Positions 1 through 11,451 of a DNA stretch of 12,823 nucleotides are shown in pieces (positions within the stretch are counted from its first letter, which is position 1; each line of letters begins with the position of its first letter). Below the pieces are notes generated by a model. The model made no database searches and was not told where the DNA came from. It saw only the letters and a list, made by a program, of their open reading frames with translations. Location: positions 1-12,823 of the forward strand of contig JAGWNR010000006.1 of NCBI GenBank assembly GCA_028871265.1, written 5' to 3'. Origin of the DNA: Patescibacteria group bacterium (GTDB lineage: Bacteria; Patescibacteriota; Minisyncoccia; Phycocordibacterales; PALSA-1337). Made by a program: the position numbers and the translations under genes.

Positions 1-420
1 TAGATCGATGTATCTCTGTATGAGTTTATTGTTCCACCGGCCTTGGTTATGACCAGAAGTAGCCCAATCTTGAATCAGCAGTGTCTCAAAAATCTCAGAG
101 ATGGTCAGATCGTCCTCGTAATTCTGAATCAAATCTGAAACTAATTTGGATATAAATCTTATAACTGCTGATCTCTCATTGGCATATTTTTTGTCCCAAC
201 AGGCAGACAGGATCCTGTAGTATCGCTCGAATAGTTCCGTCGGATTCTTGGAAGCCGAGAGTTTTTCAAGCATTTCAGGCGCTTGTTTTTCAAAAACACT
301 GACGAGATACTTGTTGGCTTTGTAAGGATCATTGTGCCCGTAGGTGACGTCATTTCCCCAACATGTGGCATACTCGTTACATATGTCTTTAATGGTTTCA
401 GCATAATCTATCATTTTCAT
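1..420 (-). CDS. Hypothetical protein, C-terminus cut by window edge
   Basis: An open frame of 140 codons runs from an ATG at 420 to the left edge with no stop, so the gene is partial. A Shine-Dalgarno-like AAAGGA lies about six bases before the ATG. The protein begins MKMIDYAETIKDICNEYA and is rich in aromatic, acidic and lysine residues. It looks soluble and mostly helical, with no signal peptide or membrane segment. Two Trp-containing stretches (CWGNDVTYGHNDPYKAN at 20-36, and QDWATSGHNQGRWNN at 117-131) look like conserved core parts. I do not recognise the family. It is the third gene of the ribozyme-punctuated cluster and its message would begin at the cut of the hammerhead at 456-511. 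The open frame, the ribosome binding site and the position support a real gene. Confidence 0.75.
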   Translation of the reverse strand, partial: MKMIDYAETIKDICNEYATCWGNDVTYGHNDPYKANKYLVSVFEKQAPEMLEKLSASKNPTELFERYYRILSACWDKKYANERSAVIRFISKLVSDLIQNYEDDLTISEIFETLLIQDWATSGHNQGRWNNKLIQRYIDL

Positions 421-455
421 AATATTCCTTTTGTTATTTGGTTTTCAACGAGCTT

Positions 456-511
456 CTCTGTTTCGTCCTTATGGACTCGTCAGGCAGGGGCTTTCGTACC
501 CTGCGACAGAG
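456..511 (-). ncRNA. Hammerhead ribozyme 1, open at stem III
   Basis: Read on the minus strand, every hammerhead element is present in order. The stem III 5' strand is CUCUGU. The cleavage site is GUC, cut after the complement of base 505. Stem I is GCAGGG/CCCUGC, capped by the nine-base loop UACGAAAGC. The core is CUGACGA, with stem II GUCC/GGAC closed by AUAA. Then follow GAAA and the stem III 3' strand (ACAGAG with its first A from GAAA). The only difference from the textbook core is C at position 7, where any base is tolerated. Cutting would leave the downstream gene with an 84-base 5' leader that starts with folded stem I and a 5'-OH. Confidence 0.93.
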
Positions 512-559
512 CCTGCATCGATCTGGATGCAGGTCGTGAGTTTTCGCAAGACTCACAAC
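512..559 (-). other. Two hairpins at the predicted 3' end of the 131-aa gene's message
   Basis: Between the stop at 570 and hammerhead 1, the minus-strand RNA can form two strong hairpins. One has arms GUUGUGAGU and ACUCACGAC (533-559, nine pairs with one U-G, nine-base loop). The other has arms CCUGCAUC and GAUGCAGG (512-533, eight pairs, six-base loop). They share one base. The second abuts stem III of the ribozyme. After self-cleavage they would cap the 3' end of the upstream message, much as a terminator hairpin does. No U-tract follows, so they are probably not terminators. Confidence 0.6.
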
Positions 560-569
560 TTGCCATTGT

Positions 570-965
570 TCATCGAAGACCTGGGAACATCGCCGGATTC
601 ATCGGATACCAGTTGCGACCTATCCCGCCTTCGTCGGATCCACTGCTTGGTTTTGGTGTAAAGTCAAGACCATCCTCCGCAAGTTCGTCCGCGATTTCCT
701 GTTCGCTTGCCTCGCAGACGATCGCGAATGTGTCGTTCATGTCGTCGAGCGTCCCTTTGTAGGCAACCTTGAGCACCGGTGGCTCGAACCATGTTACTCG
801 CTCGCGTTGCACGATTGTCCCACCTCCTAGCGCCTTGCCCCTGCGGAACACCGCGCAAGTGCTTCCTGTCACTCGCAGTGTCCATTCGTCGGGCACTGGT
901 ATGTCGAGCCCTGTTTTCTTGATAGAGTTCCCAAGCGCGTATCCGATGATTTTGTAGGTTTTCAT
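570..965 (-). CDS. Hypothetical protein, 131 aa
   Basis: A complete frame starts with ATG at 965, preceded by AAAGGA about seven bases upstream, and ends with TGA. The product starts MKTYKIIGYALGNS. It has a middle part rich in beta-branched residues, then an acidic helix (about residues 86-97, ASEQEIADELAE), and a Gly/Pro/Ser-rich tail ending GRNWYPMNPAMFPGLR. There is no signal peptide or membrane segment. I do not recognise the family; size and composition would fit a small phage or plasmid protein, but nothing in the sequence proves that. It lies between hammerheads 2 and 1, and its message after both cuts would run from base 1057 to base 505 of the minus strand. The canonical ribosome binding site contrasts with most other genes in this window. 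Confidence 0.72.
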   Translation of the reverse strand: MKTYKIIGYALGNSIKKTGLDIPVPDEWTLRVTGSTCAVFRRGKALGGGTIVQRERVTWFEPPVLKVAYKGTLDDMNDTFAIVCEASEQEIADELAEDGLDFTPKPSSGSDEGGIGRNWYPMNPAMFPGLR

Positions 966-1009
966 TTGTGGTCCTTTCGTTTTGGTTGTTTGTTGTTGTA
1001 AAGAACTGC
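966..1009 (-). promoter_or_regulatory. Unstructured A/C-rich leader with ribosome binding site
   Basis: Between ribozyme 2 and the ATG at 965 the message is a run of CAA-like triplets (ACAACAACAAACAACC) followed by CGAAAGGACCACAA. It has few bases able to pair, and it places AAAGGA at normal spacing. A similar A-rich linker with AAAAGGA lies between ribozyme 1 and its gene (421-455). The pattern suggests a folded ribozyme at the 5' end followed by an open ribosome landing site. Confidence 0.5.
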
Positions 1010-1063
1010 TCTGTTTCGTCCTTTGGGACTCATCAGCCGAGGGCTTTCGTACCTCGGGACAGA
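1010..1063 (-). ncRNA. Hammerhead ribozyme 2, open at stem III
   Basis: On the minus strand the order is: stem III 5' strand UCUGU, cleavage after GUC (complement of base 1058), stem I CCGAGG/CCUCGG with loop UACGAAAGC, and core CUGAUGA. Then come stem II GUCC/GGAC closed by CAAA, GAAA, and the stem III 3' strand (ACAGA counted with the last A of GAAA). The core, stem II and inner stem III match the classic satellite-RNA hammerhead, but stem I and both loops differ. The stem I loop is identical to that of ribozyme 1, although the stem itself differs. The cut lies 16 bases after the stop of the HIT gene and 92 bases before the start of the 131-aa gene. Confidence 0.95.
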
Positions 1064-1073
1064 CTTGTGGTTT

Positions 1074-1514
1074 TCAAGGTGTTTTCATCGCAGTTGCCGA
1101 TCGCGCGAGTATGTTGACTTTGTCCTGTGGCTCACTCTCCCTCATCACCATCGTTTGCTCCTTCAGGATGAGTAGGTGGAGGTGGTAGTGTCCGGGTATC
1201 AGCTTGTTTTTGTGCGCGTTCTCTAGGATCATGTCATACTCTTTGTGGATATCCTCTTTCACTTTTTTGAGCTCCTCAATCTCTTCTGCCGTCAGCTCCG
1301 GCTCCTTGGAGTGATGTTTCGGCGTCACCATGTGGGTTGTCTCGGCCACCTCGTCGTAGGGGAACTGGTTTTCGACTATCTTCCAGTGTTTGTATTCTCT
1401 GATCGGCTTTGATTCGCAGAGGTAGCATTTTGGCAGTTTTACCGACCGAACAAACTCGAGGTATCTAGCATGCGATTCAGGTTTTCTCAGTGATTTGAAG
1501 ATTTCTATTTTCAT
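1074..1514 (-). CDS. HIT-family (histidine triad) protein, 146 aa
   Basis: The protein carries the histidine triad H-Y-H-L-H-L-L at residues 109-115, which fits the family pattern HxHxHxx where x is hydrophobic. HIT proteins are nucleotide hydrolases or transferases that use the middle histidine to form a nucleotidyl intermediate. Further signs are CYLC at 30-33, a possible half of a zinc site, and the usual middle block WKIVENQFPYD followed by HMVTPKHH (residues 44-68). A helix, LTAEEIEELKKVKEDI, leads to the triad. The length is normal for the family. The exact substrate cannot be read from sequence; members act on AMP-lysine adducts, dinucleoside polyphosphates, cap remnants or adenylated nucleic-acid ends. 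The ATG at 1514 has no Shine-Dalgarno; an A-rich stretch links it to ribozyme 3. TGA is the stop. Confidence 0.88.
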   Translation of the reverse strand: MKIEIFKSLRKPESHARYLEFVRSVKLPKCYLCESKPIREYKHWKIVENQFPYDEVAETTHMVTPKHHSKEPELTAEEIEELKKVKEDIHKEYDMILENAHKNKLIPGHYHLHLLILKEQTMVMRESEPQDKVNILARSATAMKTP

Positions 1515-1530
1515 TTTGTTTTTATTTTTT

Positions 1531-1581
1531 ACCCTTTCGCCCTTTTGGGCTCATCAGCTCCGGCTCGCACCGGAGGAGGGT
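1531..1581 (-). ncRNA. Hammerhead ribozyme 3, open at stem III
   Basis: On the minus strand: stem III 5' strand ACCCU, cleavage after CUC (complement of base 1576), stem I CUCCGG/CCGGAG with loop UGCGAG, and core CUGAUGA. Then stem II GCCC/GGGC closed by AAAA, GAAA, and stem III 3' strand AGGGU counted from the last A of GAAA. All three stems differ in sequence from ribozymes 1 and 2 yet pair fully, and stem II changes U-A to C-G at one pair. CUC is an allowed cleavage triplet. The cut would give the HIT gene a 61-base leader. The ribozyme lies six bases after the folded region at 1588-1844. Confidence 0.92.
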
Positions 1582-1733
1582 GATCGTGGAGCGATTTCGT
1601 AGGTCCTTGCCAGTATCTACTTGTCTATTTGACAGAAGGATTCGGATTCCTACTACTCTCGCTCCTCACGCCATGATCTTTGGCGTACCGCGCTATTGCG
1701 GTATGGTTTTTCTGCAGCCGTGATCGAGGAGCG
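1580..1733. repeat. Imperfect 14-base direct repeat (1580-1593 and 1720-1733)
   Basis: GTGATCGTGGAGCG at 1580-1593 and GTGATCGAGGAGCG at 1720-1733 differ at one base. Each copy can pair with the same segment around 1659-1667, which creates the two competing folds of the RNA described for this region. The left copy runs into the first bases of hammerhead 3. A second short repeat, ATGATCTTT, occurs at 1673-1681 and 1845-1853. Confidence 0.7.
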
Positions 1734-1844
1734 CTCTCAAGGTGTAGCATGTTGCGCTATCCACCTTGACTGAGAGACCTTTGGGAATTTTCCTCTCGAC
1801 CTTTGGCCCCGGCTTTGGGCTCTTTCGGGTTCACCAACAACCCG
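1588..1844 (-). ncRNA. Folded non-coding RNA region upstream of ribozyme 3, with alternative pairings
   Basis: No convincing gene lies in 1515-2115; this part is dense in self-complementary segments. In minus-strand order there are: a perfect six-pair hairpin at 1826-1844; a hairpin of CAAGGTG/CACCTTG plus TAGC/GCTA and CTCT/AGAG arms at 1734-1776; and a six-pair hairpin at 1686-1703 next to a five-pair hairpin at 1669-1685. These last two are enclosed by an eight-pair stem, 1660-1667 with 1726-1733. The segment 1659-1665 can instead pair fully with 1588-1594, enclosing smaller nested stems (1599-1603/1649-1653, 1605-1608/1636-1639, 1622-1625/1631-1634). I do not recognise a known RNA family. 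Confidence 0.6.
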
Positions 1845-1961
1845 ATGATCTTTTATTTTATTGTTTGTTTTCTGGAGAAAGCATACATTAATGTCATTGA
1901 CACTGCTTGGATTTCATTGTGTATTTGTAAGAGAAAAGGTAGATTTTGCTTGAAAACCTAT

Positions 1962-1990
1962 ATTTTAAGCCGTACTACTGCTTTATTTAA
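1962..1990 (-). promoter_or_regulatory. Weak promoter candidate for the ribozyme cluster
   Basis: On the minus strand TTAAAT (1985-1990) and TAAAAT (1962-1967) are spaced by 17 bases. The -10 is a fair match and the -35 a poor one. It is the best-placed candidate I could find for the leftward cluster and would put the RNA start near 1955, about 110 bases before the first hairpin. The palindrome at 1990-2010 touches its upstream edge. The cluster might equally be transcribed from elsewhere. Confidence 0.25.
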
Positions 1991-2010
1991 ATGTAACTAA
2001 TTGTTACATT
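1990..2010. promoter_or_regulatory. Palindromic operator candidate
   Basis: A perfect inverted repeat has eight-base arms AATGTAAC and GTTACATT around the five bases TAATT. It lies in the gap between the leftward ribozyme cluster and the rightward TrmB-type gene, about 45 bases upstream of the latter's -35. Two-fold symmetry, AT-rich sequence and position fit a dimeric repressor site, most simply for the neighbouring TrmB-like protein. Confidence 0.55.
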
Positions 2011-2054
2011 ATTAGTGTTTCAATTTGAATTATCCACACAATCGCCCATAAAAC

Positions 2055-2083
2055 TTGCTTTTCAAGGCAATATGGTGTATAAT
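2055..2083 (+). promoter_or_regulatory. Promoter of the TrmB-type gene
   Basis: TTGCTT (2055-2060) and a consensus TATAAT (2078-2083) are separated by 17 bases. Transcription would start near 2090, giving a leader of about 26 bases with no Shine-Dalgarno sequence. Confidence 0.65.
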
Positions 2084-2087
2084 TGCA

Positions 2088-2102
2088 GTAATTAAAAATT
2101 AC
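2088..2102. promoter_or_regulatory. Second palindrome, over the predicted transcription start
   Basis: Arms GTAATT and AATTAC flank AAA. The site covers the predicted +1 of the TrmB-type gene, where a bound protein would block initiation. It shares the GTAA half-site pattern with the larger palindrome at 1990-2010, which suggests autoregulation. Confidence 0.45.
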
Positions 2103-2115
2103 ACTTATTAAAAAT

Positions 2116-2844
2116 ATGAACACCAAACAGATACTTGAAAGAATTGGCCTTACAAAGCACGAAAGCGCCATATATCTGGCTCTTTTGGAGCTTGGGCCGT
2201 CTCATATAGCTAAAATATCTGAAAAAACCTCGATTCATAGGCCTCTGGTCTACAAGGCCATTCCTTCTCTGCTTGAAAAAAAACTGATCACGCAGACCCG
2301 CAGAGCCAAGCGTACTATATATATGGCCGAGCCACCGAACAGGCTAGAGACGATGTTTGACGACCTGCGTATTGATTTTTTTGAGGCGCTGCCCGACCTT
2401 GAGGATCAATATTCAGCGAATGATCAAAAGCCCAGAGTGCGTTTTTTGCAAGGGAAGGACGGCACCAAAAGGGTTTTCGATGACATTGTCCGCAGTCTGA
2501 AAAAAGGTGACGTCTTTTATCGCATCAGTTCAAATGCGGACGGTCAAGAAAAAAAAGATAAATATGTGCCGCGGAATTATCGCAAGATGCGCGACGAGAA
2601 GAAACTCGAGCGACAAGTCATCACTAACAGCCAGACGGCCAAGCACAAAATTGCCAAGCTCGACAGATTTGTAAAGGTTATGCCAGACGATCTCGGTCCT
2701 TTCGATCACAACGTAACCGAGGTTATCTATGGAGACAAAGTAGCCTTCATCGACTACGGCTCAGAAACCGCCATGATCATCGAAAGCAAGAAAATAGCTG
2801 AGTTTCAAAAACATGTCTTTAAAATGTTTTATAAGAAATTGTAA
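2116..2844 (+). CDS. TrmB-family transcriptional regulator
   Basis: The 242-aa protein has the TrmB-family layout. An N-terminal winged helix-turn-helix spans about residues 1-75, with the typical opening LERIGLTKHESAIYLALLELG, recognition-helix region SIHRPLVYKAIPSLLEKKLI, and a wing rich in Arg/Lys. A C-terminal effector domain (about 105-242) follows, starting VRFLQGKDGTKRVFDDIV. Such proteins are common in archaea and in CPR bacteria, where they sense sugars or unknown ligands. Here the ligand cannot be inferred. It stands alone between its own promoter and a terminator-like hairpin, with two palindromes just upstream, so it probably controls itself and possibly the divergent ribozyme cluster. 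No Shine-Dalgarno precedes the ATG; the leader is A-rich. Confidence 0.85.
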   Translation: MNTKQILERIGLTKHESAIYLALLELGPSHIAKISEKTSIHRPLVYKAIPSLLEKKLITQTRRAKRTIYMAEPPNRLETMFDDLRIDFFEALPDLEDQYSANDQKPRVRFLQGKDGTKRVFDDIVRSLKKGDVFYRISSNADGQEKKDKYVPRNYRKMRDEKKLERQVITNSQTAKHKIAKLDRFVKVMPDDLGPFDHNVTEVIYGDKVAFIDYGSETAMIIESKKIAEFQKHVFKMFYKKL

Positions 2845-3021: not shown

Positions 3022-3870
3022 ATGAACAAAGCTGAATTGATCAAAAAACTCGGCGAATATTTCAAAAAACGCGATGATGTAGCCTTTGTTTATCTTTTTG
3101 GTTCAGTCGCAAAGGACAAAGCTCATTCAGAATCTGATGTAGATATCGGTATATATTTTAAACCTAGCACTCGTGCCCTGGAATATGAGACAACAAAGCA
3201 TTATCCTGACGAAAATAAAATTGGAATAGATTTGGAAAGCTTGATTGGTCGACAAACTGATATGGTGGTTTTGAATCGGGCACCGTCGACTTTGTTTTCC
3301 GCAGTTTTGGTGGAAGGTATCAAAGTCTATTCATCTGATGACGGGCTGGTTTCTAGACTTTCAAGCGCAGTCAATGATTTGTCAGAAGACTTTAGAAAAT
3401 TTGTTTTTGATTTCATCAAAATAAAAGAGCGATCAAACTCATTATCGCCGAACGACAAAGTTCGCCTTGGCCGTCTGATTGATTTTGTGCGTGATCAAAT
3501 GCCGGATTTCAAAAAATTTGCCACAGTAGATCAAAAGCAATATGAAAGAAACATAGACATCAAAAGAAATATTGAAAGATGGGCTGAGACAATGGCTACA
3601 GCATCAGTTGATATTAGTAAAATTTTAATTGCATCTAGAAAAAGACCTATTCCTCAGACCTACAAAACTATTTTGGCGGATTTGGCTTTTTTGGATGGTT
3701 TTGATGAAACGGTTGCTCATAAAATCGCCGCTTTTTCCGACCTGAGAAATTTACTTGCTCATGAATATCTGGATCTAAGATTTGTCCTATTGGATAAATT
3801 CGTCAAGGAAGGCGAACCTCTTTATGCTTATCTTATAAATTATGCCAAAGGTCTAATGGAAAAAGAATAG
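3022..3870 (+). CDS. Single-chain MntA-HepT-like protein: nucleotidyltransferase fused to HEPN (DUF86)
   Basis: The 282-aa protein joins two modules that are normally separate toxin-antitoxin genes. The N-terminal minimal nucleotidyltransferase (about 1-105) has the GSx10DxD signature (G27, S28, D39, D41) and a third acidic residue, D80, in TDMVVL. The C-terminal part (about 170-282) is a HEPN/DUF86 domain with RNLLAHEY, the Rx4HxY motif (R242, H247, Y249). In the two-gene MntA/HepT system, HepT is an RNase toxin and MntA silences it by adding AMP units to the tyrosine of this motif. All named key residues are present, so both modules look intact. A helical linker lies at about 110-170. Fusion implies modification in cis. 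It stands alone between its own promoter and the ribosomal operon. Confidence 0.85.
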   Translation: MNKAELIKKLGEYFKKRDDVAFVYLFGSVAKDKAHSESDVDIGIYFKPSTRALEYETTKHYPDENKIGIDLESLIGRQTDMVVLNRAPSTLFSAVLVEGIKVYSSDDGLVSRLSSAVNDLSEDFRKFVFDFIKIKERSNSLSPNDKVRLGRLIDFVRDQMPDFKKFATVDQKQYERNIDIKRNIERWAETMATASVDISKILIASRKRPIPQTYKTILADLAFLDGFDETVAHKIAAFSDLRNLLAHEYLDLRFVLLDKFVKEGEPLYAYLINYAKGLMEKE

Positions 3871-3956: not shown

Positions 3957-4310
3957 ATGGCACGATCACTCAAAAAAGGTATATTTGTCGAGGAAAAACT
4001 CCTGGCCAAAATCGCCGGCAAAAAGCCCGCTTCCACGGGTTCTATAAAGACGTGGTATCGTCGTTCGGCCATTTCACCGGAAATGGTCGGCTTTACATTT
4101 GGCGTGCACAATGGTCGATCCCATATAGACGTTTTAATCACCGAGGATATGGTTGGACACCGCCTCGGTGAATTTTCGCCTACCAAAAAATTCCTTCGCC
4201 ATGGTGGCAAGATGCAGAAAGAAATCGAACTCAAGGCCAAAGAGGCCGAAGTCAATGCCGCCAAAGCCGCCAAGGAAGCCACGACAGCTAAAACAGCCGA
4301 CAAAAAATAA
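3957..4310 (+). CDS. rpsS: 30S ribosomal protein S19
   Basis: The first 90 or so residues are standard S19: [16 protein letters not shown], then [19 protein letters not shown] and the C-terminal [14 protein letters not shown]19 sits in the head of the small subunit near the A site, with S13. The usual length is about 92 residues; this one has 117, owing to a charged Ala/Lys/Glu tail of about 25 residues ([18 protein letters not shown]) that is probably a flexible or helical, rRNA-contacting extension. It is the first gene of the operon. In most bacteria rplB precedes it; here a toxin-antitoxin-like gene does. Confidence 0.97.
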
Positions 4311-4316
4311 TCATTC

Positions 4317-4664
4317 ATGATCACCGCATCCCTCAACAATCACAGAATTTCTCCTCGCAAGGTCCGTGTCGCCGCCAACCTTGTCCGTGGCAAGAGCGCC
4401 GAACAGGCTTTGCTCATCCTTAGCAACTTGTCGAAAAAGGCGGCGGACCCAATAGCCGATTTGGTCCGATCAGCGGTGGCAAATGCAAAAAATAATTTTC
4501 AAATGGATACCGCCGGATTGGTAATAAAAGAGCTCCGTGTCGATGGCGGTCAAGTTTTAAAACGTTCTCGTCCGCGCTCCCACGGCATGGCAACTAGAAT
4601 CCTGAAAAGAACCAGCCATATCAAGGTTGTATTAGCGCCAGCGCCCGAAAAAAAGCAAAAATAA
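4317..4664 (+). CDS. rplV: 50S ribosomal protein L22
   Basis: A full-length 115-aa L22. It has the opening ISPRKVRVAANLVRGKSAEQAL, the central helix LVRSAVANAKNNF, and the beta-hairpin region LKRSRPRSHGMATRILKRTSHIKVVL whose tip lines the peptide exit tunnel. The tip is where macrolide-resistance changes arise; nothing unusual is visible. The gene starts six bases after rpsS without a Shine-Dalgarno, so translation is probably coupled. Confidence 0.97.
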   Translation: MITASLNNHRISPRKVRVAANLVRGKSAEQALLILSNLSKKAADPIADLVRSAVANAKNNFQMDTAGLVIKELRVDGGQVLKRSRPRSHGMATRILKRTSHIKVVLAPAPEKKQK

Positions 4665-4665
4665 C

Positions 4666-5346
4666 ATGTCACATTCTGTACACCCATATTCACACCGCCT
4701 AGGCGTCATCCGCGATTGGAAGAGTCGCTGGTTTAGCGAAAACAAAGGCTATCGCAACGCTCTAAAGGCGGATTTAGTTTTGCGCGAATTTCTCCAGGAA
4801 GATCTCCGTTATTTTTATGTTTCAAATATTCAAATTGAACGTAATCAGAAATCCATTCGAATCATCATTCGAACTTCTCGTCCAGGCATGATCATCGGCC
4901 GCCAGGGAGAGGGAATGACCGCCCTTCGCAATAAAATTCTGGATCTTTTCCGCCGCAACAAAATTGATTTGGCCGGTCAGGAATTAAAAATAGACATAGA
5001 AGAGGTCCGCAGTCCGGAATCAGATGCCGCTATTGCCGCGCTCATGATTGCCGAAGGCTTGGAAAAGCGCTTGCCTTTCCGCCGCGTTTTGAAACAGTCT
5101 CTGGAAAAAATCACCGCCAATCGCGACGTCCAGGGTGCTCGTATTCGTCTCTCCGGTCGTCTAGGCGGTACCGACATCGCCCGTTCCGAAGAGCTGAAAA
5201 AAGGTCGAATTCCTCTGCAAACTCTCCGCGCTGACATTGATTTCGCCCGCGATCGCGCCAGGATGAGCTATGGCGGCATCGGCATAAAGGTCTGGATATA
5301 CAAAGGCGATATATTTAACAATAAAAAGCCAGCGGCAAAAATCTAA
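4666..5346 (+). CDS. rpsC: 30S ribosomal protein S3
   Basis: The 226-aa protein has the expected two-domain layout. An N-terminal KH domain carries the GxxG-type loop IIGRQGEG (about 76-83). The C-terminal S3 domain carries RRVLKQSLEKITANRDVQGARIRLSGRLGGTDIARSE in pieces around residues 139-175. S3 forms part of the mRNA entry channel. The opening SHSVHPYSHRLGVIRDWKSRWF corresponds to the usual KVHPIGFRLGI start. Only one base separates it from rplV, so the two are very likely co-translated. Confidence 0.97.
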   Translation: MSHSVHPYSHRLGVIRDWKSRWFSENKGYRNALKADLVLREFLQEDLRYFYVSNIQIERNQKSIRIIIRTSRPGMIIGRQGEGMTALRNKILDLFRRNKIDLAGQELKIDIEEVRSPESDAAIAALMIAEGLEKRLPFRRVLKQSLEKITANRDVQGARIRLSGRLGGTDIARSEELKKGRIPLQTLRADIDFARDRARMSYGGIGIKVWIYKGDIFNNKKPAAKI

Positions 5347-5358
5347 CATTTTACTACC

Positions 5359-5790
5359 ATGCTATTTCCCAAAAAAGTAAAATATCGCAAGTGGCATACC
5401 AAACGCATCAACCCTAAAAAGGCTGCCACCAGAATGGAAACCCGCGGCGTGGCTTTGGCTTTTGGTTCATATGGTCTAAAAGCCACTAAATACGGTCGCA
5501 TCACCTCCAACGAAATCGAGGCCGCCCGCAAAGTCATGAGCCGCTACGCCACCAAAGCCGGCAAGGTCTGGGTTCGTATTTTTCCCGATCGACCGTACAC
5601 TCAAAAGCCGCCAGAGGTCAAATTAGGTAAAGGTAAAGGCGAACCAGTCGGTTTTGTCGCTGAAATCCGTCCCGGCCGTATCCTCTTTGAAATCGACGGC
5701 GTCGGTGACCGAGAATCCGTCGAAGCTCTGCGCAAAGCCGGTACCAAAGTCTCCGTCAAAACGCGCATTGTCAGCCGCGAGCTTGCATAA
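5359..5790 (+). CDS. rplP: 50S ribosomal protein L16
   Basis: A 143-aa L16 with the typical MLFPKKVKYRKWH start and the central GRITSNEIEAARKVMSRY and VWVRIFPDRPYTQKPPE. The KGKGEPVGFVAEIRPGRILFEIDGV block, which contacts tRNA near the peptidyl-transferase centre, is also present. The N-terminal glycine/arginine-rich loop is shorter in glycines than in E. coli. The gene begins 12 bases after rpsC with no Shine-Dalgarno. Confidence 0.96.
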   Translation: MLFPKKVKYRKWHTKRINPKKAATRMETRGVALAFGSYGLKATKYGRITSNEIEAARKVMSRYATKAGKVWVRIFPDRPYTQKPPEVKLGKGKGEPVGFVAEIRPGRILFEIDGVGDRESVEALRKAGTKVSVKTRIVSRELA

Positions 5791-5819
5791 TTTGCGGAAA
5801 TGCGTAGTATAGATAATCC

Positions 5820-6002
5820 ATGAACGACTATAAAAATAAAACCCCAGCCGACCTAGCCAACTTAGTCGCCGAAAAGCGTTCGGCTCTACGCACATTTCGT
5901 TATGGTTCCACCGGCGGCAAAACCAAAAATGTCAAGGAGGGCCGTACTCTACGCACAGAAATCGCTCGCATCATGACCGCCGCACGTGCAAATTCAAAAT
6001 AA
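5820..6002 (+). CDS. rpmC: 50S ribosomal protein L29
   Basis: A 60-aa L29, recognised by its position and by the helical-hairpin pattern: KTPADLANLVAEKRSALRTFRY, then a turn, then VKEGRTLRTEIARIMTAAR. L29 sits by the exit tunnel and helps bind trigger factor and SRP. The match is weaker than for its neighbours, as is usual for L29, but gene order makes the call firm. The 29-base gap before it is one of the largest inside the operon. Confidence 0.92.
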   Translation: MNDYKNKTPADLANLVAEKRSALRTFRYGSTGGKTKNVKEGRTLRTEIARIMTAARANSK

Positions 6003-6005
6003 TCC

Positions 6006-6281
6006 ATGGCAACAACACCCGCACAAAAAAATACAGTGTCAAAAGCTCCGGCCATCGTGAGGCGCGCTCAATTTTCCGGCATTGTCGTTTCGACAAAAAT
6101 GAAAGACACCGTCGTTGTCGCCGTAGAGCGATACATGAAACATCAGAAATATCACAAATTCATTCAGCGCACCACCCGTATCAAGGCTCATGATGCCGGC
6201 AACACCAAAAAGGTCGGTGATCGGGTCACCATCGAATCTTGCCGCCCATTGTCGCGCGACAAAGCTTTCAAAGTCATTTAA
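6006..6281 (+). CDS. rpsQ: 30S ribosomal protein S17
   Basis: The OB-fold S17 core runs from about residue 20 ([20 protein letters not shown]) through [24 protein letters not shown] to [22 protein letters not shown]17 is a primary 16S rRNA binder in the lower body of the small subunit. At 91 residues it is slightly longer than usual because of a flexible N-terminal tail ([13 protein letters not shown]). It begins three bases after rpmC. Confidence 0.96.
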
Positions 6282-6290
6282 TAAATCACC

Positions 6291-6662
6291 ATGATCCAAC
6301 CTCGCTCAATCGTAAAAATCACTGACAATTGCGGCGCCAAAATCGGTCGCATTTTCAAGGTTCTCGGCTCATCCAAAAAACGCTATGCCGAAATCGGCGA
6401 TTTGGTCGTCCTCTCTGTCCAAAAGGCCGAACCTCGTAAAACGGTGAAGAAAAAAGACGTCCTCCAGGCCGTCGTCGTCCGCCAGACCAAACCTTTCCGT
6501 CGCGCCGACGGTTCATATATCCGTTTTGATGAAAATGCCGTCATTATCATCGAAAAGGGCAAGAAAGAGCCCATTGCTGGCCGCGTCTTCGGCCCTATCC
6601 CTCGCGAAATCCAGGAGCGCGGTTTCCAGACCATTGCTTCAAAGGCTCCCGAAATCGTATAG
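6291..6662 (+). CDS. rplN: 50S ribosomal protein L14
   Basis: A full-length 123-aa L14 with the characteristic start MIQPRSIVKITDNCGAKIG. It also has VVVRQTKPFRRADGSYIRFDENAVII and the end block RVFGPIPREIQERGFQTIASKAPEIV. L14 lies at the intersubunit face beside L19 and is the docking site of the silencing factor RsfS. Length and motifs are standard. Confidence 0.97.
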   Translation: MIQPRSIVKITDNCGAKIGRIFKVLGSSKKRYAEIGDLVVLSVQKAEPRKTVKKKDVLQAVVVRQTKPFRRADGSYIRFDENAVIIIEKGKKEPIAGRVFGPIPREIQERGFQTIASKAPEIV

Positions 6663-6702
6663 GCTTTCGACTTTATAAACTTTTGACTTTCGACTAATTA
6701 CC

Positions 6703-6936
6703 ATGAACATAAAAAAAGGCGACACAGTAAAAATACTCTCTGGCGATGACCGCGGTAAAACCGGCAAAGTTGTCGCGGCTTTTCCGCGCGACGGCAAAAT
6801 CCTGGTCGACGGCATCAACATGATGAAAAAACATGAACGTGCTCGCAAAGAAGGCCAAAAGGGTCAAGTCGTCGAACGCGCCATGCCGATTCATGTGTCG
6901 AATGCGGCAAATGCCTCTGAATCTAAAAAGAAATAA
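6703..6936 (+). CDS. rplX: 50S ribosomal protein L24, short form
   Basis: The KOW domain is clear: MNIKKGDTVKILSGDDRGKTGKV, then ILVDGINMMKKHERARKEGQKG and the AMPIHVSNA strand. L24 starts 50S assembly by binding the 5' end of 23S rRNA. At 77 residues it lacks the C-terminal zinc-ribbon-like stretch of about 25 residues found in many bacteria and ends in a short Lys/Ser tail. The 40 bases before it hold a doubled CTTTCGACT (6664-6672, 6687-6695). Confidence 0.95.
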   Translation: MNIKKGDTVKILSGDDRGKTGKVVAAFPRDGKILVDGINMMKKHERARKEGQKGQVVERAMPIHVSNAANASESKKK

Positions 6937-6941
6937 TAATC

Positions 6942-7493
6942 ATGAAAAAAGAAAATTTTGTCACAATGAAAGAAAAAGCAGGGCACGCCTTCAAAAACCT
7001 GAAGGAAACTTTGCATATTAAAAATCCCATGCAGGCGCCGCGTCTCCAGAAAATCATCGTCAACGTCGGTTTCGGTTCGGTCAAGGATAAAGCCAAAATC
7101 ACCCTCATTGCTGATCGTCTGGCTAAAATCACCGGTCAAAAACCCGCCACCCGTGTTGCAAAAAAATCCATTGCCACCTACAAAACCCGCGTCGGCGATC
7201 CACTGGCCTACCAGATCACTCTCCGCGGTGCTCGCATGTATGATTTCCTCGATCGTTTGGTCCACATCGCTCTGCCCAGAACCAAGGACTTCCGCGGCCT
7301 TTCCCGCACCGTCGACTCTATGGGCAATTACAGCATCGGTATCAAAGAGCACACCATTTTCCCGGAAACGGCTGACGAAGATTTGAAAGACGTCTTTGGC
7401 CTATCCATCACTTTTGTCACTACTTCAAAAGATAAAAACCATACTCTGGCCTTCCTCGAATATATGGGCCTGCCACTCAAAAAAACCGCCTAG
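6942..7493 (+). CDS. rplE: 50S ribosomal protein L5
   Basis: A complete 183-aa L5 with PRLQKIIVNVGFG, KITGQKPATRVAKKSIATYK, and LRGARMYDFLDRLVHIALPR. The DFRGLSRTVDSMGNYSIGIKEH block, which binds 5S rRNA, is also present. L5 sits in the central protuberance with 5S rRNA and touches P-site tRNA. It is the last gene of the operon: repeats and a strong terminator follow at once, where rpsN and rpsH usually continue. Confidence 0.97.
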   Translation: MKKENFVTMKEKAGHAFKNLKETLHIKNPMQAPRLQKIIVNVGFGSVKDKAKITLIADRLAKITGQKPATRVAKKSIATYKTRVGDPLAYQITLRGARMYDFLDRLVHIALPRTKDFRGLSRTVDSMGNYSIGIKEHTIFPETADEDLKDVFGLSITFVTTSKDKNHTLAFLEYMGLPLKKTA

Positions 7494-7528
7494 GCCCTAA
7501 GTCGGACATATGCCCTAAGTCGGACATA
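7494..7528. repeat. Tandem duplicate of a 17-base element after rplE
   Basis: GCCCTAAGTCGGACATA occurs at 7494-7510 and again at 7512-7528, one base apart and without mismatch. Each copy contains the small palindrome GTCGGAC. The pair fills the space between the stop of rplE and its terminator. A related palindrome with the GTCCGAC form of the core lies at 12525-12537. Confidence 0.75.
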
Positions 7529-7530
7529 GT

Positions 7531-7557
7531 AAAAAGCGCTTTACCAGGCGCTTTTTT
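7531..7557 (+). terminator. Rho-independent terminator of the ribosomal operon
   Basis: AAAAAGCGC (7531-7539) and GCGCTTTTT pair over nine bases around an eight-base loop, and the 3' arm is a run of six T. It is a classic strong terminator. Confidence 0.9.
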
Positions 7558-7588
7558 CGTACCCGCCAGGTCAGAGATAGCCACACCC

Positions 7589-10788: not shown

Positions 10789-11451
10789 CTACGCAGAAAT
10801 CACCTGATCTTTCAAATCTTTAGCTGCTTGGATAAAGAAATCTTGCCATTTCTTTTCGTCTAGTTTTATGAGCATCCTTGGATAATCCTTCAGTTCCGCT
10901 ACTTTTAAATATTGACTTCCCAACTGTATTGGATCCAGATAATTGTCAAACTTGGCCTGAGCTTTCTCGGACAGGTCGTTCAAATTCCAATCTTTCTCTT
11001 TTTGTAATATGCAATAAAGGTCTATAAAATCTCGTGACCGTGGTTTTTGGTATATGGTGAATATTTTATTTACGGCAATATCCAGCAAGCTGTCTAGCTC
11101 TATATTGTCTTGCTTTGCCCCTTTTTCTATTCTGGTAAATGGAAAATAGGTGAATTCGGTCTTGATTTTTTCATCAGCTAAATCTAGAAAGAACAGGCTT
11201 CGGTTGAAACTTTGGGTATATTCTACTTTTTTTACACCGGTTGTTTTGGATATTTTTTTCAAGATAATCGAAATATCCTGCGGATCAAACTCATTTTCCG
11301 AAAAGAAATCCAGATCTTCAGACAGTCTGTGATGGAGATAAAATTCCGCCAATGCTGTGCCACCGCCAAAATAAAAGCTGTTCGTTATGGTTTTTTCCTT
11401 ACCCAAAACAGTCAATATTTTCTTTTGATTATCGCTTAATATTTTTGACAT
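10789..11451 (-). CDS. AbiEii-family nucleotidyltransferase, possible toxin
   Basis: The 220-aa protein has the family's catalytic block FGGGTALAEFYLHHRLSEDLDFF (in pieces at residues 28-50): the GGGTAL loop and the DLD acid pair (D46, D48). It also has the later motif with K129 and RSRDFIDLYCIL (R138, R140, D141, D144). AbiEii-type proteins transfer nucleotides; studied ones act as toxins of abortive-infection or toxin-antitoxin pairs, some by adding nucleotides to tRNA. It starts six bases after the stop of the 62-aa gene, without a Shine-Dalgarno, so translation is probably coupled to it. The canonical AbiEi antitoxin, a larger winged-helix protein, is absent. Confidence 0.85.
   Translation of the reverse strand: MSKILSDNQKKILTVLGKEKTITNSFYFGGGTALAEFYLHHRLSEDLDFFSENEFDPQDISIILKKISKTTGVKKVEYTQSFNRSLFFLDLADEKIKTEFTYFPFTRIEKGAKQDNIELDSLLDIAVNKIFTIYQKPRSRDFIDLYCILQKEKDWNLNDLSEKAQAKFDNYLDPIQLGSQYLKVAELKDYPRMLIKLDEKKWQDFFIQAAKDLKDQVISA

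Follow-up and report, generated by a model that had tools for sequence, protein, structure and literature searches.

The first 1.6 kb of a 12,823-nt stretch of DNA from a Patescibacteria group bacterium (hereafter the window, meaning the whole stretch analysed, which is the entire contig C108 of an assembly of 654,659 bases in 123 contigs) holds three small minus-strand genes, and every one of them is preceded by a complete type III hammerhead ribozyme. As structures, these three hammerheads are confirmed as real and well supported. With a probability of about 0.55, we read the locus as a chromosomal operon, probably under TrmB control, whose polycistronic RNA would cut itself between small genes through the hammerheads; after each such cut, boxA would load the Nus factors anew. 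Many junctions of the family to which these elements belong are composite, with gene, stem-loop, hammerhead, boxA and next gene following one another in this order. Relative to the preliminary description of this DNA, made from its letters, the analysis adds a stem abutting the hammerhead on its 5' side, a motif like boxA, a TrmB gene upstream and the occurrence across Patescibacteria. What is new is the setting, and not hammerhead arrays as such.

Hammerhead structures and their conservation

HH1 (456..511), HH2 (1009..1064) and HH3 (1530..1582), all on the minus strand, present the exact core (CUGANGA, stem II, GAAA), an NUH cleavage triplet and complete stems I and III, as defined by a descriptor that returned three matches in the window and none in 50 mononucleotide shuffles of it. 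Cleavage is predicted at 505/504, 1058/1057 and 1576/1575, with triplets GUC, GUC and CUC, respectively. The preliminary description was right in these bases and triplets (505, 1058 and 1576), in placing a complete hammerhead with intact core ahead of each of the three genes, and in pointing to a compensated stem II pair in HH3 (U-A to C-G). Two of the three hammerheads clearly occupy intergenic positions. The preliminary description had also named covariance scores below threshold as an outcome speaking against its hammerheads. The Rfam model RF00008 gave 46.7 bits for HH1 (E 8.8e-8), 42.3 bits for HH2 (E 1.6e-6) and only a partial match for HH3 (13.5 bits, E 2.6), and since all three lie below the gathering score of 48.5, this outcome was formally obtained. 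A fairer test was passed: model R2, built from 45 hammerheads of other genomes of the order, none of them from the window's genome, and run with filters off, scored HH1, HH2 and HH3 at 57.5, 57.6 and 62.3 bits, and no other place in 22,476 bases exceeded 8.7 bits. HH1 and HH3 each fold as a hammerhead when folded alone; upon addition of flanks HH1 keeps this fold, and HH2 and HH3 do so less clearly. A fourth hammerhead of the window's genome (C7:1178-1239) stands ahead of another gene.

At E 1e-3, RF00008 matched 27 of 100 relatives, just one of which exceeded the gathering score, and none of 14 control genomes. Searches with a further model, R1, under strict filters that lose weak matches, produced matches in 88 of 397 genomes of the window's Patescibacteria order and in 46 of 379 genomes of the phylum, the largest number in a single genome being 13 (G068). 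Covariation of the stems was found in two sets. Among 58 of 59 distinct hammerheads, 94.0% of cells are paired and 235 cells show double changes, versus 67.5 when columns are shuffled (a control that preserves columns, not relatedness) and 17-31 when partners are slid (a control that does preserve relatedness). Among 45 other hammerheads, those of 51-54 nt within 56 of the order, 189 cells do so versus 57.3 in shuffles. Conservation of the core is not independent evidence, because the descriptor required the exact core; covariation is.

The gene layout was surveyed around 116 hammerheads with a custom codon-score gene caller, which made no downstream call for 3 of them and no upstream call for 9. 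The downstream gene is co-directional with the hammerhead in 106/113 cases, at a median distance of 72 nt, and the upstream gene in 97/107, at a median of 77 nt. The flanking genes are small, with a median of 133 amino acids, and poorly characterized.

The composite junction and the upstream TrmB gene

Counts for the 5' stem and the boxA-like motif were made among the matches listed plus regions chosen for fetching, which favour arrays, and these counts, as well as the motif spacing, cover only hammerheads with exact core whose stem I loop does not exceed 14 nt. The independent order set (56 hammerheads) omits loci of training genomes and hammerheads identical to training ones. A stem was taken as abutting when its score was at least 8 and its 3' arm ended within 4 nt of the hammerhead, those hammerheads with less than 50 nt of upstream sequence being omitted. 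Such a stem precedes 35/59 hammerheads of the first set (1.9 in dinucleotide shuffles), 38/55 independent hammerheads of the order (shuffle mean 1.8), 11/24 of the phylum (0.9) and 36/59 of phage contigs (2.0); in view of this last count, the abutting stem seems to be common to phage and Patescibacteria hammerheads. H-type pseudoknots 5' of the hammerhead are a weak signal, at 5/59 and 5/55 (shuffle means of 1.1 and 0.5, maxima of 4 and 3). In the window, an 8-bp hairpin (512..533, minus strand) directly abuts HH1, and once HH1 cuts, the message of gene 2 would have this hairpin as its 3' end. As to the viral sequences themselves, the IMG/VR contigs L089, L103, L105 and L137 hold three hammerheads apiece, and an ATG lies within 60 nt 3' of 52/59 viral hammerheads.

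The GTTCTTTGAAA-like sequence was first noticed directly 3' of hammerheads on reading their leaders. HTCTTT occurs within 20 nt 3' in 30/59 hammerheads of the set where it was first seen and in 37/56 of the independent order set, found with a hammerhead-only model. For these same 56 hammerheads, the next two windows give 0 and 2 occurrences and the upstream windows 2, 1 and 1, with the 3' windows counted from 2 nt inside stem III. In 62/70 cases the motif begins 0-4 nt past a 6-bp stem III. G[ACT]TCTTT is found at 68/115 hammerheads versus 0/60 viral ones, a close variant of it occurs at least once in 42 of 57 genomes, and the boxA-like motif precedes 18/46 genes with a hammerhead within 100 nt upstream versus 15/305 other genes of the same loci. 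Compared with the gamma-proteobacterial boxA consensus GYTCTTTAANA, as given in the accessible part of its source (PMC5725501), a relaxed form, GWTCTTTRANA, is present in 27/115 hammerhead leaders. Fifteen genomes gave a 16S match, and ribosomal RNA (rrn) leaders were taken from the 11 of these 16S genes that were near-complete; the window's own genome gave no 16S match. CTTTGA[CAT]A, a motif picked once the leaders had been inspected, is present in 9 of the 11 in sense and in none in antisense orientation (shuffle mean 0.39, maximum 3), and the CTTTGA core is common to them and to the boxA-like motif of the hammerheads. In the window, a boxA-like site, GTTCTTTACAAC (995..1006, minus strand), lies just 3' of HH2 with a position weight matrix (PWM) score of 16.2, close to the family median of 16.8, and a degenerate one, GCTCGTTGAAAAC (441..453, minus strand), lies just 3' of HH1 with a weak score of 8.0.

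NusB is encoded in 20 of 21 genomes, and the Rho RNA-binding domain PF07497 was found in 0/21 genomes of the order versus 9/14 controls. Because of this result boxA can hardly act via Rho as in E. coli, and an anti-Rho action of boxA was rejected. A role as anti-Shine-Dalgarno sequence was likewise rejected, the longest complement averaging 4.94 versus 4.92 in shuffles over 35 leaders.

A composite pattern matched 47 stretches of genome_contigs (84,980 species) and none of viral_contigs. The descriptor confirmed the hammerhead at 42 of the 47, the remaining five being L249, L273, L278, L283 and L286. By title, the 42 confirmed stretches are Patescibacteria, groups counted among these (Taylor-, Nomura-, Kaiser-, Zambryski-, Wolfe- and Lloydbacteria and others) or unnamed bacteria; the exceptions are two short contigs, L246 and L274, which had been assigned to Phycisphaerales and Spartobacteria bins.

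Upstream of the window's array, and divergent from it, lies a gene for a TrmB-family transcriptional regulator (2116..2844, plus strand), which matches Pfam PF01978 with 48.3 bits (E 8.9e-13; curated cut-off 25.6). Relatives of this protein, 72-80% identical, adjoin hammerhead arrays in G032, G045, G074 and G068. In the 20 genomes evaluated, chosen for having hammerheads and holding 92 TrmB genes in ~17 Mb by rounded sizes, a TrmB gene stands at most 3.2 kb upstream of 26/32 hammerhead clusters versus 0.55 expected, 20 of them divergent, and downstream of 2/32. Three of the six clusters without an upstream TrmB gene have less than 800 nt of contig on that side.

Genes of the window and their neighbourhood

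Gene 1 (1..420, minus strand) is truncated by the contig end, gene 2 (570..965, minus strand) encodes 131 amino acids, and gene 3 (1074..1514, minus strand) encodes 146 amino acids; no Pfam or NCBIfam family matched any of the three. The gene 3 product is predicted to be a histidine-triad (HIT)-like protein, since its modelled fold matches HIT proteins and its sequence contains an HxHxH motif. The best model has a mean predicted local distance difference test (pLDDT) value of 81.7, with 53-59 for the other four of five models, and the PDB structures ranked highest against it belong to HIT proteins (best E 4e-4, query template modelling score about 0.4-0.5); a PDB sequence search gave a best E of 0.074, which is not meaningful. 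CxxC, PxxH and HxH are invariant, with HYHLH in the window protein, and in 12 relatives HxH is invariant and the third histidine nearly so. Homologues 47-53% identical adjoin hammerheads in 5 other genomes, and a large protein set yielded only 7 gene 3 proteins, the window's own included.

The 533 nt between HH3 and the TrmB gene (1583..2115, minus strand) presumably hold the promoter and leader of the array; a coding remnant, short or decayed, may also lie there, and Rfam gave nothing above chance in this region. On the other side of the TrmB gene, ribosomal protein genes S19 to L5 adjoin the array as an operon at 3957-7493, and because of this operon the locus is read as chromosomal. A prophage origin was rejected for the window, as the ribosomal protein operon lies beside the array and the TrmB and gene 3 proteins have no phage match, both being absent from 50,697 phage records.

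Other features of the window include a single open reading frame (3022-3870, plus strand) that matches a nucleotidyltransferase domain and a HepT-like one, resembling a fused MNT-HepT toxin-antitoxin pair, and an AbiEii-type nucleotidyltransferase gene (10789-11451, minus strand). After the L5 gene, positions 7459-7560 (plus strand) gave an RNAI match of 24.9 bits, under the cut-off of 47; the match covers repeated CCCTAAGTCGGACAT units and a hairpin with a T run, and the element is probably a terminator rather than RNAI.

Proposed mechanism, alternatives and known systems

In the proposed mechanism, TrmB would control the operon, whose RNA would cut itself at each hammerhead. After the cut, the upstream message would keep a stem-loop and a 2',3'-cyclic phosphate at its 3' end, and the one downstream would begin with a 5'-OH in the folded ribozyme remnant, protection of the ends of the cut messages being a putative part of the same scheme. 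On the nascent RNA, the boxA just past the cut would serve as a binding site for NusB/NusE, and Nus factors would be loaded onto the polymerase again after each cut; a new boxA would be called for each time because the cut severs the RNA tether to the earlier one. Its extension to a general cut-and-reload junction, in which stem-loop, hammerhead and boxA of TrmB-linked operons without detectable Rho would release stem-capped single-gene messages at each co-transcriptional cut and promptly bring a new Nus complex to the newly made end, so that the polymerase keeps moving, is offered more tentatively, as a possibility well short of an even chance.

Several observations weigh against this interpretation. 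In the window, only HH1 has a strong abutting stem, HH2 and HH3 having 4-bp ones only, and only HH2 carries a good boxA-like site, none being present 3' of HH3 (best PWM score -5.9). The minimum-energy fold of HH2 alone opens stem III, with a z-score of only -1.5, and in the HH2 leader (971-1006, minus strand) boxA is able to pair with the ribosome site of gene 2. A search of the window's own genome, which is 90% complete, gave no NusB. In relatives, 45 of 75 called gaps within 27 runs of several hammerheads contain a hammerhead, the boxA-like motif is rare outside the order (4/24 phylum hammerheads), the strict gamma-proteobacterial consensus is present in just 7/115 leaders, and the boxA PWM in rrn leaders gives shuffle p values above 0.05 in 9/11. 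As regards the regulator, the close TrmB relatives G003:C32 (81%) and G084:C6 (74%) show no hammerhead in the pieces fetched, and loci newly found by the composite pattern have an upstream TrmB gene in only 6 of the 15 with more than 2.5 kb available. Finally, some wider neighbours of the arrays match phage families, among the 116 of 219 neighbours that were aligned and the 25 of 95 families listed: two match a head maturation protease, two a portal protein (E 1.9e-6), and one matches each of two integrase families. Clp proteases also fall under the head maturation protease family. On account of these integrase, portal and protease-type matches, some relatives' arrays may sit near mobile elements.

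The main alternative role for boxA is a translation effect like that at suhB: hammerheads would cut as in prophage arrays and the boxA-like motif would be a separate regulatory site, for instance for Nus-dependent translation repression, unlinked to the cut. That phage hammerheads do without it (2/60), that it also occurs at the 15/305 genes lacking a hammerhead close upstream, and that E. coli has a boxA ahead of a protein gene, according to the accessible part of that report (PMC5725501), are all consistent with such independence. It is less easily reconciled with the fixed onset of the motif 0-4 nt past stem III and with its being about eight times commoner ahead of hammerhead genes than of others, and we hold it to be possible but doubtful. 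The hammerheads could also be mere relics, or passengers of gene cassettes that phages or recombination exchange and spread, without any role in expression. Flanking sequence does recur between genomes, GAGGAAGCAGA lying 5' of 6 hammerheads in 5 genomes, similar arrays are found in phage contigs, integrase and portal-like matches occur among the wider neighbours, and gene content is highly variable, with 101 clusters among the 124 flanking proteins. Such an origin is nonetheless unlikely given the strong covariation, the strict orientation relative to genes, the lack of both the TrmB and the gene 3 protein in the 50,697 phage records and the PHROG search of the 124 flanking genes, which returned no head or tail protein. 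Conditional switching, with cutting governed by a ligand or protein, would fit the 31/115 hammerheads whose stem II loop has at least 12 nt, but the loop is of 4 nt in 84/115, HH1-HH3 among them, and no riboswitch family is present in the window, making this the least credible of the alternatives and a very improbable one.

Concerning the flanking genes, the PHROG search also gave one Rz-like spanin match (E 0.00054), and a Pfam scan of 124 of 127 of them gave Response_reg as the commonest family (5/124) among the 25 of 32 families listed. Another recurring sequence, TGAAACTGAAA, lies 5' of 6 hammerheads in 3 genomes; loci with recurring sequences upstream of hammerheads are L159, L039, L040, L044 and L187, and both GAGGAAGCAGA and TGAAACTGAAA are perhaps conserved gene-end or 3' untranslated region elements.

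The reading of a TrmB-linked operon cut and reloaded at its junctions, if right, would give a testable role outside phages to hammerheads, the bacterial function of which a 2017 review considered an open question (PMC6155905). Recurring together and linked to a single type of regulator gene, stem-loop, hammerhead and boxA would amount to serial operon self-processing joined with transcription processivity. A Nus role independent of Rho is hinted at as well, as is a way of dividing one long RNA into single-gene messages while its synthesis goes on unstalled.

Known systems resemble these junctions in part. The preliminary description knew of no cluster with one hammerhead per gene and predicted processing into single-gene messages. 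Arrays beside single genes, and this same idea, are already published for prophages: according to the accessible part of Perreault 2011, clustered hammerheads flank single genes or short gene blocks, processing into single-gene messages was proposed for these arrays, and three tandem arrangements cleave in vitro, the Agrobacterium one in E. coli too (PMC3088659). The window and its relatives share with those arrays, as there described, the proximity of several hammerheads beside single genes, and differ from them in that the array of the window lies next to an operon for ribosomal proteins, its genes are small and poorly characterized, a TrmB gene stands upstream, and a site like boxA follows immediately 3'. 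The phage hammerheads fetched here share the abutting 5' stem (36/59) but not boxA (2/60). No report of hammerheads in Patescibacteria or of hammerhead-boxA junctions appeared in the literature searched, a search that left most subscription papers and bioRxiv preprints outside. In the E. coli system, as far as the accessible part of its report goes, a boxA likewise precedes a protein gene, leading to translation repression and then Rho termination, but without a ribozyme (PMC5725501).

Structured RNA near boxA, the feature common to the junctions described here and Nus-dependent antitermination, is found in the boxB-boxA of rrn leaders and in the nut sites of lambda at the start of the transcribed unit. 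On the contrary, the structure at the hammerhead junctions is a ribozyme motif that recurs inside protein-gene operons, in genomes where Rho was found in 0/21. Lastly, the ribozyme insulators of synthetic biology place a self-cleaving RNA before a gene, trimming the upstream leader, while the junctions of the hammerhead family are natural, serial and accompanied by a 5' stem and boxA, and would provide natural parts for such insulators.

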